Assembly (NCBI GenBank): GCA_028822935.1
Contig: JAPKCM010000006.1
Span: 1 to 64,000 of the forward strand
Direction: 5' to 3'
Length of the DNA: 64,000 bases
DNA from: Akkermansiaceae bacterium
GTDB lineage: Bacteria > Verrucomicrobiota > Verrucomicrobiia > Verrucomicrobiales > Akkermansiaceae
Shown here: positions 20,787-40,812 of the stretch, one piece after another
How the letters are laid out: the number at the start of each line of letters is the position of its first letter
How positions within the stretch are numbered: position 1 is the first letter of the stretch
Position numbers and translations under genes: made by a program
The notes under the pieces: generated by a model
Seen by the model: the letters and a program-made list of their open reading frames with translations, nothing else
Databases searched by the model: none
What the model was told of the DNA's origin: nothing

Positions 20787-22577
20787 ATGAAACGTATTTC
20801 ATTTCTTGCCAGTCAGATCGTTGCTTTGTCATTGGCCCTTCCGAGCCTTGCTGAAGAGTCTGCCGTGATGATTCAGCGAGAGGGGAGATCCGCCACCCTA
20901 TTGGTAGATGGAAAACCCTTTGAGGTGAAGGGAGTTGGAGGTGAAGGAGCGCTTGAGCTGCTCCGGGATTCTGGAGGAAACACCGTGAGAACCTGGGGAA
21001 TCGGGGAGACGACACCCGAGATGCTCGACGAAGCAGAGCGACTAGGGCTGAAGGTGGCCTTGGGATTCTGGATTGGGCACGAACGGCATGGCTTCAGTTA
21101 CACCGATTGGGGCTCGGTCACGGGACAAGCAGATGCTCTCTTTGCTGCGGTGCGGAAATTTAAGGATCACCCGGCGGTCTTGCTCTGGGGAATTGGCAAT
21201 GAGATGGAAGGGTTCGAGGCGACTTCGAATCCGGCGATCTACACCCAAATCGAGTATCTCGCGAAGAAAGTGAAGGAGATCGATCCAAATCATCCCGTGA
21301 TGACGGTTACCGCGGAGATTGGGAAGCGTCAGATTGAGGGATTGAATCGCTTCTGCCCGAGTGTCGATATTCACGGCATCAATTCTTATGGAGGAGTGGT
21401 TTCCCTTCCGAGGCGATACAAAGAGGGCGGGGGAGTGAAGCCCTACCTCATCACTGAATTTGGTCCTGCGGGGACCTGGGAAACGGAGGCGAACCAGTGG
21501 GGAATGCCAGATGAACTCTCGAGCACGGAGAAGGCTAAGTATTACCGCCGAGCTTACGAAACGGTGCATGCGGACCCTCTTTGCCTGGGGAGTTTTGCCT
21601 TCATGTGGGGATCGAAGCAAGAGGCTTCTGCGACTTGGTTTGGTCTTCTCCTGCCAAGTGGCGAGAAGCTTGCGGGGGTGGATGAGCTGACTCAGCTTTG
21701 GTCCGGGAAACCTGCTGGGAATCTCTGCCCGGTCATTCAATCGATTGCACTACAGGGGCCCAATCAGCTACTCGATAAAGGGGCGATCATTGAGGTGAAG
21801 CTTGAAGCTTCGGATCCGGAAGAGAAAGAGCTGAAGGTCACCTGGGTTCTCGCGGAGGATTGGAAAGAGACTGCCGAGGGCGGTGATGAGCGTCCGGCCC
21901 CCCCGACTTATCCGGAAGCCATTTTACCTGAATCAACGGCCTCGCATGCTCGCATCCAAATCCCTCAAAATGGGGGGACGTTCCGAGTTTATGCCTATGT
22001 TGTTGATCCCGCAGGTGGAGCGGCGACCGCGAATGTTTCGATCAAGGTAACGGGAGGGAGAGAGCTGATTTCGGCCAAGAAACTTCCGCTTCCTCTGACG
22101 GTTGCCGGGGCTGAAGGAGCGGGCCCGTGGGTTCCTAGTGGTTGGATGGGAGACACGGAAAAACTGACGCTGGAGGAGCTTTCCACGGAGAACCCGAAGG
22201 TGGGTAAGCACTGCATCAAGCTCGATTTCACAGCTGACTCGGGCTGGGCCGGAGTGGTTTGGCAGCATCCTTCAGGTGACTGGGGGGATGCGCCGGGCGG
22301 GATCGATGCCACGGGTGCCGAAGTGCTTTCTTTCTGGGCTAAAGGCAAAGAGGGAGGAGAGAAGCTCACAGTGGGAATTGGAGTTATCGGAGCCGATAAA
22401 CCCTATCACGATACCGTGAAGGAGAGCCTTGACCTGACCCTCACAAGCGAATGGGTGAAGCACGAGATTGATCTTAAAGGCAAAGACCTTTCCCGCGTAA
22501 AATCAGGGCTGTTTTTCTCTACCGCCTCGAATGGGAAGCCGGATACATTTTACCTCGACGAGGTCGTGATCAAGTAA
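20787..22577 (+). CDS. Exported glycoside hydrolase-like protein (GH2-type TIM barrel plus C-terminal beta domains)
   Basis: A 596-residue secreted protein with a signal peptide (MKRISFLASQIVALSLALPSLA). Residues 25-315 form a GH-A clan TIM barrel: VLLWGIGNEMEG carries the likely acid/base Glu near residue 134 and PYLITEFGPAGTWE the likely nucleophile near residue 224. It resembles the catalytic part of GH2-type enzymes that lack the usual N-terminal sandwich. Residues 320-425 are an Ig-like domain, and 430-596 a carbohydrate-binding-like beta-sandwich ending DTFYLDEVVIK. Substrate unknown. A 281-bp gap upstream to divergent tpiA probably holds its promoter. Confidence 0.85.
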   Translation: MKRISFLASQIVALSLALPSLAEESAVMIQREGRSATLLVDGKPFEVKGVGGEGALELLRDSGGNTVRTWGIGETTPEMLDEAERLGLKVALGFWIGHERHGFSYTDWGSVTGQADALFAAVRKFKDHPAVLLWGIGNEMEGFEATSNPAIYTQIEYLAKKVKEIDPNHPVMTVTAEIGKRQIEGLNRFCPSVDIHGINSYGGVVSLPRRYKEGGGVKPYLITEFGPAGTWETEANQWGMPDELSSTEKAKYYRRAYETVHADPLCLGSFAFMWGSKQEASATWFGLLLPSGEKLAGVDELTQLWSGKPAGNLCPVIQSIALQGPNQLLDKGAIIEVKLEASDPEEKELKVTWVLAEDWKETAEGGDERPAPPTYPEAILPESTASHARIQIPQNGGTFRVYAYVVDPAGGAATANVSIKVTGGRELISAKKLPLPLTVAGAEGAGPWVPSGWMGDTEKLTLEELSTENPKVGKHCIKLDFTADSGWAGVVWQHPSGDWGDAPGGIDATGAEVLSFWAKGKEGGEKLTVGIGVIGADKPYHDTVKESLDLTLTSEWVKHEIDLKGKDLSRVKSGLFFSTASNGKPDTFYLDEVVIK

Positions 22578-22810
22578 GGGAGGCGAACCTGATCGGCGGA
22601 TCGAGGAGGCTTGAGTTTTGTCCTTAAGATTCGCGGACTACGACCGCTATGAGGGAGAATAGGGGTTCGTGATGTTCGGAAAGCGATTGAGACGGGTAAG
22701 CTCCGTGGTCTCACGACGCATGCCTTCGCGATCGAGAAGCAGGCCAGCGAGACCTTTCCCTTAATGTTTACACGTTGTCCATTCTCCGGCGTCATCGACA
22801 AGGAGAGAGA
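22578..22810. other. Gap with a possible coding remnant
   Basis: About 230 bases downstream of the glycosidase. A frame around 22663-22800 (+) encodes DVRKAIETGKLRGLTTHAFA and EKQASETFPLMF, which looks protein-like but has a stop just upstream (TAG near 22652) and no clear start. It could be a relic of a deleted enzyme; nothing else is seen. Confidence 0.25.
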
Positions 22811-22840
22811 AAAAAGCCCCAGAAGAAAACTTCTGGGGCT
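22811..22840 (-). terminator. Intrinsic terminator of the UPLC selenoprotein gene
   Basis: An 11-bp stem (AGCCCCAGAAG, 22815-22825, with 22830-22840) with AAAA loop and a T-run on the minus strand at 22811-22815, 26 bp past the stop codon. Confidence 0.88.
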
Positions 22841-22865
22841 CGAGGAAATGATTGGGGAGAGATGC

Positions 22866-23264
22866 TTATTTCTTAGGCAGGAGTTTGGCCACGACGGCCT
22901 CAACTTCCTTCTTTCCGTAGGAGTGACCGTCGACGGTCTTAATGACCTTGCCCTTCTTGTCCTTGGCGATGATGCCGTGGCCCTTGAGTTTGGCTTTTTT
23001 GATTTCCTGGGTGCTCTTGCCCGCACCGACGAGGACGTTGTTGAAAGTGATTTCCTTACCTTTTGTCTTTTTGAGATCATTCACGATGACCGCGATTTTC
23101 GCGCACAACGGTCATCCGTCGTAGTAGTAGTAAGTGAGCGTCGGCTTTTTGGCTTCGACGGTTTTCTCGGCAGCGGGAGCGGATTTCGTCTCTTGGGCTG
23201 CGACGGTTTCGACAAGGAAGACGGGAGCGATTGCCGCAACGGTCCAGAGCATGATTTTTTTCAT
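22866..23264 (-). CDS. Exported thioredoxin-like selenoprotein with UPLC motif
   Basis: A 132-residue protein if the in-frame TGA at 23112-23114 is read as selenocysteine (residue 51). It begins with a signal peptide (MKKIMLWTVAAIAPVFL, to VAAQ), then a Lys/Ala linker, YYYYDG-U-PLC at 47-54, and a domain with KGHGIIAKDKKGKVIKTVDG that fits the last two strands of a thioredoxin fold. U-P-L-C is a CxxC redox motif with Sec in the first place. Translation before and after the TGA is in one frame, the signal lies only upstream, and the terminator is just after the far stop. Ordinary calling would give an 80-residue protein starting at TTG. Exact family unknown. Confidence 0.78.
23087..23114 (-). 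promoter_or_regulatory. Candidate SECIS-like hairpin at the UGA of the UPLC selenoprotein
   Basis: On the minus strand UGACCG (starting at the UGA) pairs with CGGUCA 22 bases downstream, enclosing a smaller GC helix (CGCG-AAAAU-CGCG as an alternative). The position right at the UGA suits a bacterial SECIS element, but the apical loop lacks the GGU seen in the other two candidates, so this one is weaker. Confidence 0.4.
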
Positions 23265-23484
23265 CACCTGAGGGTAGAGTTAATTTTTCAAGAATACAAT
23301 GAGAGATGATGGGGGATGGGAATGAATTCAGGCATTGGCCAAGGGTATCATTCGCGCTCTTTTAGAGAAACCTCCGGCAACCTTATTTCTGAGAATGAAG
23401 CCAGGTTGCGGCACTGTTTTTTCCGAATTGCTGAAGGTCTGCAATTCCTGCTTGCGGGTCGTAGAAGTTGGGCGAAGGTAACTT

Positions 23485-24726
23485 GTGAGCATTATTAGAA
23501 GCGTTCTTTTTCTATCGATCATTGGAATGGTTGCGCCTTTGGCTGCGTCGATCAATTGGGATGAGTGGCGGGGTCCGACAAGGGATGGAATGGTCCATAA
23601 AGGTGCTCAGGTTTGGCCGGAAAAGCTCAGCAAAGAGAATTTCAAGAAGGCGTGGACGGTTGAATTGGCTGAAGGCTATGCGAGTCCGATCGTTTTTGGC
23701 GAGCGGGTGTTTACGGTGGAGACGAAGGACAAGAAGGAGGAAATTGTTCGGGCTTTTGATCGAAAGTCGGGGAAGCAGCTGTGGGAGTCGTCTTGGGAAG
23801 GCTCGATGAAGGTGCCATTCTACGCCGCGCGGAATGGAAGCTGGGTCCGGAGTACTCCTGCTTGCGATGGAAAATTTCTCTATGTTGGAGGAATGAAGGA
23901 TGTTTTGGTGGCGCTGGATGTCACGACTGGAAAGGTGAAGTGGCGGGCTGATTTCCCTCAAGATGAGGGAACGCAGAAGCCGCAGTTTGGCTTCGTTTGC
24001 TCGCCTTTGTTGGGGAAAGACCATCTTTATGTGCAGGTAGGATCGGCACTTCGTAAGATCCGGAAATCGGATGGTAAAACAGTTTGGAAGACGCTGGAGG
24101 ACGGGCGGGCGATGTTTGGGGAGGCCTTTTCCTCGCCGACGAGGACAACGATTGGAGGGAAGGATCAGATTTTGGTGCAGACGAGAACTCTCCTGGCAGG
24201 AGTGAGTCCTAAAAATGGTAAGATTTTGTGGTCCACACCGGTGAAAGCTTTTCGGGGAATGAATATTCTGACTCCGACCCCGATTGGTGACCGTGTTTTT
24301 ACGGCGAGCTACGGTGGGGGGACGTTCTGGTATGAGGTGAAGGCAAGTGAAAAGGGGCAAGAGGTGACGGAGCTTTGGAATGACAAGGTGGAAGGAAATA
24401 TGTCTTCTCCGGTAGTGATCGACGGGAAGGTTTATCTTCATGGGAGGGACAAGCGCTTTCATTGTATTGATCCCGAGGCGAAGAAGATATTGTGGTCGAC
24501 GGATAAAAAGTATGGGGATTACTGGTCGATGGCGGTGAATGGGAATCGGATTTTGGCTTTGGACAACCGGGGAATTCTTTTGCTGATCGAGGCTGATCCG
24601 GGTGGTTTCAAGTTGGTCAGTGAGTTGGAGGTGACGGGAAGTCCCACCTGGGCTCACGTAACGATTTGTGGAGATGAGGTTTTTGTAAGAGATCTCAAGG
24701 GTTTGACATCGTATCGATGGAAATAA
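23485..24726 (+). CDS. Exported PQQ-repeat beta-propeller protein
   Basis: A 413-residue exported protein (GTG start, signal MSIIRSVLFLSIIGMVAPLAA). It then reads DEWRGPTRDGMV, the usual start of this Verrucomicrobiota/Planctomycetota propeller family. Blades are marked by LVALDVTTGKVKWRADF, LAGVSPKNGKILWSTPV and FHCIDPEAKKILWSTDK. No quinoprotein catalytic Asp pair or heme is visible. The nearest neighbour is katG, 144 bp downstream. Two more propellers of this type lie at 12.6 and 41 kb. Confidence 0.85.
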   Translation: MSIIRSVLFLSIIGMVAPLAASINWDEWRGPTRDGMVHKGAQVWPEKLSKENFKKAWTVELAEGYASPIVFGERVFTVETKDKKEEIVRAFDRKSGKQLWESSWEGSMKVPFYAARNGSWVRSTPACDGKFLYVGGMKDVLVALDVTTGKVKWRADFPQDEGTQKPQFGFVCSPLLGKDHLYVQVGSALRKIRKSDGKTVWKTLEDGRAMFGEAFSSPTRTTIGGKDQILVQTRTLLAGVSPKNGKILWSTPVKAFRGMNILTPTPIGDRVFTASYGGGTFWYEVKASEKGQEVTELWNDKVEGNMSSPVVIDGKVYLHGRDKRFHCIDPEAKKILWSTDKKYGDYWSMAVNGNRILALDNRGILLLIEADPGGFKLVSELEVTGSPTWAHVTICGDEVFVRDLKGLTSYRWK

Positions 24727-38692: not shown

Positions 38693-39214
38693 ATGAAACT
38701 AAAAGCTATTCTCTTTTCCCTTCTGGCCACCGTGGGACTCCATGCGGATTCCTTGGACCTAGGCACGCCTCTTCCTGCAGTAAGTGGGAAAAATCAAGCA
38801 GGGGAGAAGGTGAAGCTTATACCAGCCAAGGATCACGAATGGCTTTTGGTATTTTTCTACCCAAAAGCGCTTACCGGCGGATGAACCAAGCAGGTTTGCT
38901 CGGTGCGGGACGCATTCGAAACATTGACAGAGAAAAAGGTGACGGTTTTTGGAATTTCCACTGATAAGGTAGAGAGCCAGAAGAAGTTCGTTGATCAAAA
39001 CAAGCTTTCTTACGATCTTATTGCTGATACCGAGGGAGATGTGGCCAAGGCATTTGGGGTCCCTCTTAGGTTTGGAGGTAAATTTGCAGCCCGCTCGGCA
39101 TTCTTGTTTAAGGACCAAAAACTGGTCTGGAAGGACGAAAAAGGGGCGACAGCGACTCAGGGTGAGGATGCTCTTGAGGCAATTAAGAATGTCGAAAAGG
39201 GCGTGGATAAGTGA
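38693..39214 (+). CDS. prxU: Exported selenocysteine peroxiredoxin (Bcp/PrxQ type)
   Basis: A 173-residue peroxiredoxin if TGA at 38882-38884 is selenocysteine 64. The signal peptide is MKLKAILFSLLATVGLHADS. The catalytic loop reads FFYPKALTGG-U-TKQVCSVRD, aligning with Bcp-type YPKAxTPGCTxQACxxRD: U replaces the peroxidatic Cys, and Cys69 (five residues on) is the resolving Cys. The downstream part (VTVFGISTDKVESQKKFVDQ, LSYDLIADTEGDVAKAFGV) is typical. The frame is unbroken by anything but the TGA. Sec peroxiredoxins are known in some bacteria and reduce peroxides faster than Cys forms. Unless read as Sec, the gene would be split in two. Confidence 0.88.
38882..38904 (+). promoter_or_regulatory. 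SECIS-like hairpin after the prxU UGA
   Basis: The UGA is at 38882-38884. Directly after it ACC-A-AGCA (38885-38892) pairs with UGCU-C-GGU (38897-38904) around a 4-base loop GGUU; one A-C mismatch interrupts 7 pairs. A GGU-type apical loop just 3' of UGA is characteristic of bacterial SECIS elements bound by SelB. Spacing is shorter than in E. coli fdhF. Confidence 0.62.
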
Positions 39215-40452: not shown

Positions 40453-40812
40453 CTAGCTTGAGAGGAACCCGGCGATGCGCGCTTTGGGGCGACCGATGAT
40501 GGCCTTGTCGCCTTTGACTAAAACAGGGCGTTGCAGGAGCTGCTTGTGCCTTACGAGAATGTTGACAACCGCCTTTGGATTGCCCACGTAGTCGTCGGGA
40601 TTGAGTTCCAGTTTCTTGAACTTCGAATCTTTTCGTACTAGATCCTCCACGGGATCTTCCAGTGCTTTGACGATTTTTGTGAGTTCCTCTTCCCCGGGAG
40701 GGGTCTTGATGTAGAGGATCACTTCGTGGTCCACTCCGAGTTCCTTGGCGACCGCCAGGGCATTATCAGAGGAGCCTCAATGGTTGAAATGGTAAATTGT
40801 TACTTTCGACAT
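40453..40812 (-). CDS. ArsC-like thioredoxin-fold selenoprotein
   Basis: A 119-residue ArsC/Spx-family protein if TGA at 40777-40779 is selenocysteine at residue 12. It reads MSKVTIYHFNH-U-GSSDNALAVAKELG. In E. coli ArsC the catalytic Cys is also residue 12 in the same place (IYHNPACGTS), so Sec replaces the nucleophile. Downstream it has DHEVILYIKTPPGEEELTKI and RKDSKFKKLELN, then GNPKAVVNILVRHKQLLQRP with the PV-type loop and KAIIGRPKARI. The usual third Arg of the ArsC active site is not obvious, so arsenate reduction is uncertain; it may act on another oxidised substrate. Ordinary calling would begin it at GTG 40734 and lose the active site. Confidence 0.85.
40743..40779 (-). promoter_or_regulatory. 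SECIS-like hairpin after the ArsC-type UGA
   Basis: UGA at 40777-40779 (minus strand). After 17 bases CCUGGC (40759-40754) pairs with GCCA-A-GG (40749-40743) with one bulged A; the loop is GGUC. A GGU-containing loop about 17 bases after UGA is close to the E. coli SECIS layout and shares the GGU of the prxU hairpin. Confidence 0.65.

Follow-up and report, generated by a model that had tools for sequence, protein, structure and literature searches.

Is the TGA triplet at 23112-23114 of the window, i.e. of the whole 64,000-nt stretch of Akkermansiaceae DNA analysed here, a stop codon or a selenocysteine (Sec) codon, and what kind of protein does the frame around it encode? A first-pass annotation had proposed an exported selenoprotein with an in-frame TGA in the context YYYYDG-U-PLC. 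Translation of 23264..22866 on the minus strand confirmed the frame: 50 codons are followed by the TGA, 81 further codons and a terminal TAA (22868-22866, minus strand). The part behind the TGA, previously given as a domain of 78 residues, has 81; the figure of 78 applies behind the second Cys. The features of the gene are located as follows:

22866..23264, minus strand: putative UPLC selenoprotein gene, 132 codons plus stop with a single in-frame TGA (translation and homologues of the same architecture)
23196..23264, minus strand: predicted signal peptide, residues 1-23, cleavage between VAA and QE (inspection by eye)
22869..23144, minus strand: predicted thioredoxin-fold domain, residues 41-132 (AlphaFold2 model, Foldseek, VIA-align)
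23112..23114, minus strand: predicted Sec codon TGA, codon 51 (U51), in YYYYDG-U-PLC (homologue comparison)
23103..23105, minus strand: Cys54 of UxxC, the presumed resolving Cys (identical in 56/56 aligned rows)
23075..23091, minus strand: hairpin of bacterial SECIS type, GGUCAU-CGUGA-AUGAUC, its apical loop 26 nt past the TGA (pairing, synonymous variation, folds, hairpin scan)
22974..22979, minus strand: invariant His96-Gly97, with Gly at the cis-proline position (hhalign, HMMER, 56/56 rows)
22923..22925, minus strand: invariant His114, directly behind the final Gly of strand 4 (56/56 rows, hhalign)
22814..22841, minus strand: terminator-like hairpin of 12 pairs with a T run (pattern match only)

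By eye, the N-terminus resembles a Sec-type signal peptide (KK, a hydrophobic stretch, then VAA before Q), in line with the signal peptide annotated earlier; this part of the AlphaFold2 model has low confidence. The frame had also been described as ending just before a terminator. A 12-pair hairpin with a T run does begin 24 nt past the stop (22841-22814, minus strand), but such matches are not more frequent than in shuffled sequence (one in the searched stretch against a shuffle mean of 1.3). A scan for a promoter-like site of the gene found none. Both flanking ORFs lie on the plus strand, one ending at 22577 and the other starting at 23485. A plus-strand ORF of 181 aa (22764..23309), antisense to the gene, is taken as mechanical. 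Searches of the 64-kb window for tRNA genes and for Rfam families at gathering scores found neither. ORFs of at least 90 aa without profile annotation were clustered around 42 loci (the window and the 41 named loci described below); no cluster occurred at more than 10/42, so that no recurring partner gene emerged, and the clusters vary in distance and strand.

Conservation of the TGA was followed through several genome collections. Homologues were present at 23 places in 22/58 related genomes (own genome included), and 22 of the 23 carry exactly one in-frame TGA; the match in genome G050 has no in-frame stop and Cys instead. A profile of 18 members matched 47/386 sampled genomes of the order at 48 places: 43 have one TGA, four have Cys and no stop, and one is truncated near a contig end. 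This last match (L128, in G629), which lacks the TGA-bearing half and begins 131 nt from the contig end, was dropped. The collection genome_contigs, which represents 84,980 species by a single genome each, was scanned with two peptide patterns. Of the 42 loci obtained, 41 have TGA; the remaining one, the Bacteriovoracaceae locus L085 (CPFC; 46% over 26 residues, glutaredoxin-like by eye), was set aside. In a phylum sample of 387 genomes a single-protein query, which is a weak kind of query, returned the own gene only. Because the collections overlap, the count to use is that of the 52 distinct TGA-type genes, obtained from an examination of 106 loci. Their terminal stops vary (TAG 26, TAA 21, TGA 5). 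TAA or TAG at the internal position, named in the first-pass annotation as evidence that would count against Sec, occurred in none of the homologues found in the 58 relatives, the 386 genomes of the order or genome_contigs. With terminal stops this variable and internal TAA or TAG never found, the internal TGA is conserved beyond chance.

The codons behind the TGA evolve as protein under purifying selection. Over 77 such codons in the 19 genes of the nearest group, median dN was 0.120 and dS 0.934, a ratio of 0.107, with a maximum of 0.22 over 146 usable pairs; the other 25 of the 171 pairs were excluded for undefined or large dS. Beyond the SECIS region the ratio was 0.092 (126 pairs). Mismatches after the TGA were frequent at third positions (0.42) and rare at second positions (0.05). 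For the 24 codons upstream of the TGA, dN/dS was 0.21 with a maximum of 1.3 (86 pairs).

The hairpin downstream of the TGA was analysed in a numbering in which the T of TGA is 0; bases 23-28 pair with 39-34 and bases 29-33 form the loop. Among 45 distinct sequences, standard pairs form in 39 (23-39), 44 (24-38), 45 (25-37), 44 (26-36), 45 (27-35) and 45 (28-34), pair 23-39 being broken in six. The pairs just below (22-40, 21-41 and 20-42) form in 11, 3 and 23 of the 45, so the stem is taken to end at 23-39. Compensatory changes occur within it. Pair 25-37 changes from U-A to C-G in three sequences (L117, L118 and L119), where two amino acids are altered together, Val becoming Ala and Asp becoming Gly; the protein sequence there seems to be shaped by the SECIS. 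Pair 23-39 changes from G-C to A-U in one sequence, and the loop-internal 29-32 from C-G to A-U in six, both changes being silent in the protein. These are few events: the three sequences form a single clade, and the six belong to one seven-member group. Synonymous variation, calculated for 49 genes (three of the 52 TGA genes contain ambiguous residues and were left out), drops to 0.15, 0.54, 0.54 and 0 bits at codons +8 to +11, against mostly 1.2-2.1 bits at surrounding four- and six-fold codons. Other codons of low variation are the Gly before the TGA (0.54 bits, mostly GGA), Thr +7 (0.71) and Thr +16 (0).

Folding was examined in 48 genes, the four with ambiguous bases being left out. The 24-nt segment has a mean energy of -5.7 kcal/mol against -2.8 kcal/mol for synonymous shuffles. 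Single genes are often unexceptional: the fold energy of the own gene was equalled by 19/200 synonymous shuffles. Published rules for bacterial SECIS elements ask for a stem of 4-16 bp, a loop of 3-9 nt, a G in the first two loop positions, a location 16-37 nt after the UGA and a minimum free energy of at most -7.5 kcal/mol (PMC13188914). The geometry agrees with these rules (6-bp stem, loop CGUGA with G at the second position, 26 nt spacing). In energy the hairpin is modest; -7.5 kcal/mol or lower is reached in 4, 22 and 43 of the 48 genes for segments of 24, 48 and 60 nt. The own gene gave -4.5, -10.5 and -11.7 kcal/mol for the same lengths; the 48-nt minimum is a competing fold in which the UGA itself is paired, and the 60-nt minimum includes the hairpin. 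Across genes, the hairpin core lies within the 60-nt minimum in 37/48.

Absence of the Sec machinery had been the other finding expected to speak against Sec decoding. The own genome encodes tRNA-Sec (53.9 bits, cut-off 47), SelB (278, cut-off 242), SelA (486, cut-off 268) and SelD (387, cut-off 125), all above their curated cut-offs, and ARAGORN also calls a tRNA-SeC with anticodon TCA. Weak matches are unspecific, since tRNA-Sec, SelB and SelD each give some match in 14/14 control genomes. The cut-offs do discriminate: few of the 14 control genomes exceed them (tRNA-Sec 5, SelB 2, SelA 1, SelD 2). In the set of 58 related genomes, SelA was present in 20/21 genomes with the TGA gene and in 17/37 without it (Fisher p 1.4e-4, uncorrected for kinship). 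The exception is G022, a genome 72% complete, which has the TGA gene and in which no SelA was found. The own SelD gene itself contains an in-frame TGA (SCGG-U-ASKLG). Its hairpin has the loop CGUGC, of which CGUG is common to the hairpin loop of the UPLC gene.

The protein was modelled with AlphaFold2 from 18 sequences, with C substituted for U. Mean pLDDT was 78, with ten-residue means of 91-95 for residues 41-110 and 86-88 for residues 111-130. The modelled order is strand-helix-strand-helix-strand-strand-helix, and residue 51 sits just before helix 52-68. One thioredoxin fold thus spans the TGA in the model, with strand 1 encoded upstream and the remainder downstream. The best Foldseek match (E 3e-6) was to thioredoxins. 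In VIA-align a designed thioredoxin scored best (Z 13.7; 87 residues at rmsd 1.6), and many natural ones reached a Z of about 12. The matches listed by both programs are almost only thioredoxins, which says nothing on other families. A thioredoxin fold, the prediction of which had been proposed as a check, has the support of the model. The reading of the Cys three residues after U as part of a CxxC-type pair is supported as well: Cys54 is identical in 56/56 rows, and UxxC lies at the start of helix 1 in the model.

Y46, U/C51, C54, H96, G97, G105 and H114 are identical in the 52 Sec and four Cys rows; two of the latter (L110 and L112) had escaped the gene-extraction pattern and were added by hand to the alignment and tree. 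An hhalign comparison with the TrxA of the own genome (E 3e-4, probability 42%) aligns U51 with the leading Cys of CGPC, G97 with the cis-proline and H96 with the residue preceding that proline; H114 falls directly behind the Gly of strand 4. A HMMER alignment to 8xyw concurs on H96 and G97. Because Gly97 fills the cis-proline position, ahead of strand 3, in 56/56 rows, cis-proline is absent throughout. Sequence evidence supports Sec decoding, the fold, the invariant U, C, H and H and the loss of cis-proline alike.

By record title, the 41 named loci belong to Akkermansiaceae, Verrucomicrobiales, Verrucomicrobiaceae, Roseibacillus, Rubritalea and the like, with one titled only 'Bacterium' and one Lentisphaerales. 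The relatives found are therefore Verrucomicrobiota by title or kinship, plus one Lentisphaerales record. This record (L079) is the only match so titled and may reflect transfer, old presence or mis-binning. Isolate names (ALOHA, FRAM, TMED) suggest that many carriers are marine. As Cys counterparts, only four very divergent sequences of one related genus were found (L110-L113). They have the motif CFLC, N-termini that look lipobox-like by eye and no TGA. They share the His-Gly and His positions of the UPLC protein and have Cys at the Sec position, but identity is 26% (one measured) and they form a separate side of the tree, set off by a very long branch (about 4.4 changes per column in all) in an analysis for which the program warns of few columns and long branches. 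One bin (G505, contamination estimated at 4%) carries both a Cys-type lipoprotein-like copy (L112) and a Sec-type copy (L114). No close Cys orthologue was found in the 58 relatives, the 386 genomes of the order or genome_contigs, where the scan detects one only if it matches one of the two peptide patterns.

Judged from the sequence, the UPLC protein is almost certainly a selenoprotein. If the TGA were an ordinary stop, the locus would hold a gene for a 50-residue exported peptide and, behind it, a second gene of 80 codons with an internal TTG or GTG as start; the ORF list does contain a TTG-started frame of 80 codons at 22866..23108. This reading is highly improbable: 52 distinct genes with differing terminal stops keep the TGA in place, strand 1 of the modelled fold precedes it, four Cys forms continue through without a stop, and a SECIS-type hairpin with compensatory changes lies downstream. 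That the TGA specifies another amino acid in an alternative code, or reflects an assembly error or a pseudogene, is more improbable still. In its favour, most records are metagenome-assembled genomes by title. Against it stand the recurrence of the TGA in many separate assemblies, the 5/52 genes that end in a TGA stop, the tRNA-SeC with anticodon TCA, the finding that Cys, not Trp, substitutes for U in relatives, and the median dN/dS of 0.11.

The cis-proline of thioredoxin-fold proteins is conserved more than CxxC and may prevent metal binding (PMC2757866). Among enzymes of this fold it has been termed a universal catalytic lock (PMC13269488, 2026), and its substitution in DsbA is reported to abolish turnover (PMC13269488). 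With cis-proline absent and two His fixed, the family may either carry out a different redox reaction or hold a metal. We regard a periplasmic Sec-Cys redox protein as the best explanation and as a reasonably probable one; export, redox chemistry, a substrate and an electron donor are what we infer for it. The hairpin 26 nt downstream would direct SelB and tRNA-Sec to insert selenocysteine at UGA51, and the signal peptide would carry the protein over the inner membrane. There the thioredoxin domain would fold, Sec51 coming to lie at the helix 1 tip, a turn ahead of Cys54. Sec51 could then attack a substrate in oxidised form, such as a disulfide or peroxide, and Cys54 could resolve the intermediate as a selenenylsulfide, in an active site that His96, the residue before the usual cis-proline position, and His114 would shape. 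Ordinary thiol-disulfide exchange is disfavoured because cis-proline is lost. Alternatively, Sec51, Cys54, His96 and His114 might serve as periplasmic ligands of a soft metal or cluster in trapping, delivery or sensing. This idea is rather unlikely. In its favour, four residues of ligand type (U/C, C, H, H) align with thioredoxin active-site positions and are identical in Sec and divergent Cys forms, and a review suggests metal-linked roles for several selenoproteins (PMC13188914). However, the recurring neighbour ORFs (at least 90 aa, without profile annotation) included none recognised as metal-handling, and the His may rather serve as an acid/base group or to modify a pKa, like the Arg of peroxiredoxins (PMC2757866). 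A doubtful extension, slightly less likely again, is that of an almost exclusively Sec-based exported family of Verrucomicrobiota in which loss of cis-proline opened the site to a periplasmic Sec-Cys-His-His soft-metal centre. Of the two readings of the active site, we prefer redox chemistry over metal binding.

Discovery of bacterial selenoproteins relies on Sec/Cys pairing in homologues. A family with only Sec among the close orthologues found is easily overlooked by this approach. It would provide a natural test of the role of selenium in the absence of the cis-proline "universal catalytic lock" (PMC13269488), and it indicates use of Sec in the cell envelope of Verrucomicrobiota, which a word search of the review PMC13188914 did not find named.

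Further in-frame TGA codons were seen on the same contig. One lies at 38882-38884 (plus strand) in a peroxiredoxin-like gene at about 38693-39214 (YPKALTGG-U-TKQVC), with a signal-like N-terminus, an AhpC-TSA match of 94.8 bits (cut-off 26) and a hairpin, ggugcg-GGA-cgcauu, whose loop is 23 nt downstream of the TGA; Table 1 of PMC13188914 contains peroxiredoxin selenoproteins (TxxU). Another, at 40777-40779 (minus strand, start at about 40812), reads MSKVTIYHFNH-U-GSSDNALAVAKELG with UxxS and belongs to the ArsC family (PF03960, 46 bits, cut-off 24); an arsenate reductase with UxxS is found in the same table (PMC13188914). Outside the window, near 91504-91707, a TlpA/thioredoxin-like locus (L131) has W-TGA-GPC in frame and matches AhpC-TSA (37 bits) and Thioredoxin (33 bits), both above cut-off. 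With this further Sec candidate, the own genome looks rich in selenoproteins.

The UPLC selenoprotein exceeded no Pfam or NCBIfam cut-off. Thioredoxin (PF00085) reached 18.0 bits against a gathering cut-off of 23.5; of 18 rows compared with this profile, 11 match at E <= 0.1, the UPLC protein itself best (E 0.0029). PF13098 gave 13.5 bits against 27. NCBIfam TrxA matched weakly (21.8 bits, cut-off 140), with 14/18 members at E <= 0.01 and a best E of 3e-6. No NCBIfam UxxC selenoprotein family matched at E <= 10 for the protein or E <= 0.01 for the 18 members, and the GOS_C model NF045500 (Omp28-type), tested directly, gave nothing better than E 7 in the own genome. Compared by name and motif, the protein was not recognised in the 119 entries of Table 1 of the 2026 catalogue PMC13188914. 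Mainly open-access literature on selenoproteins and selenoproteomes of Verrucomicrobia, Akkermansiaceae and Roseibacillus yielded no published description. Within this scope the suggestion of an undescribed family held up, and the UPLC protein apparently represents one. We file it as a selenoprotein and a thioredoxin-fold protein and not as a thioredoxin, since the PF00085 cut-off and cis-proline were both tested and the protein has neither the score nor the residue.

With thioredoxins (PF00085, including Sec-containing Trx with UxxC) the protein has the fold in common, as well as a CxxC-type motif where helix 1 begins. It differs from them in having no WCGPC, a Gly after an invariant His in place of cis-proline, a predicted signal peptide, and Sec in nearly all members found. 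UxxC occurs likewise in SaoT (NF040730), HUIPC (NF047660), GOS_C (NF045500), DsbG-like and PF13098 thiol:disulfide interchange proteins, most of them thioredoxin-like (PMC13188914). Peroxiredoxins have TxxC or TxxU where the UPLC protein has UxxC, and no peroxiredoxin family was among its Pfam matches. They also use an Arg, in contrast to His-Gly here (PMC2757866). A Sco-like register for His96 was considered and dropped, as hhalign sets Gly97 and not His96 at the cis-proline position. The Sco1/SenC copper proteins share the Trx fold and two Cys; the profile match to Bacillus Sco1 is very weak (E 0.76) and not significant. Sco1/SenC proteins have a copper-binding His. Their motif is CxxxC (PMC2757866), as opposed to the UxxC of the UPLC selenoprotein, and their chain is longer.
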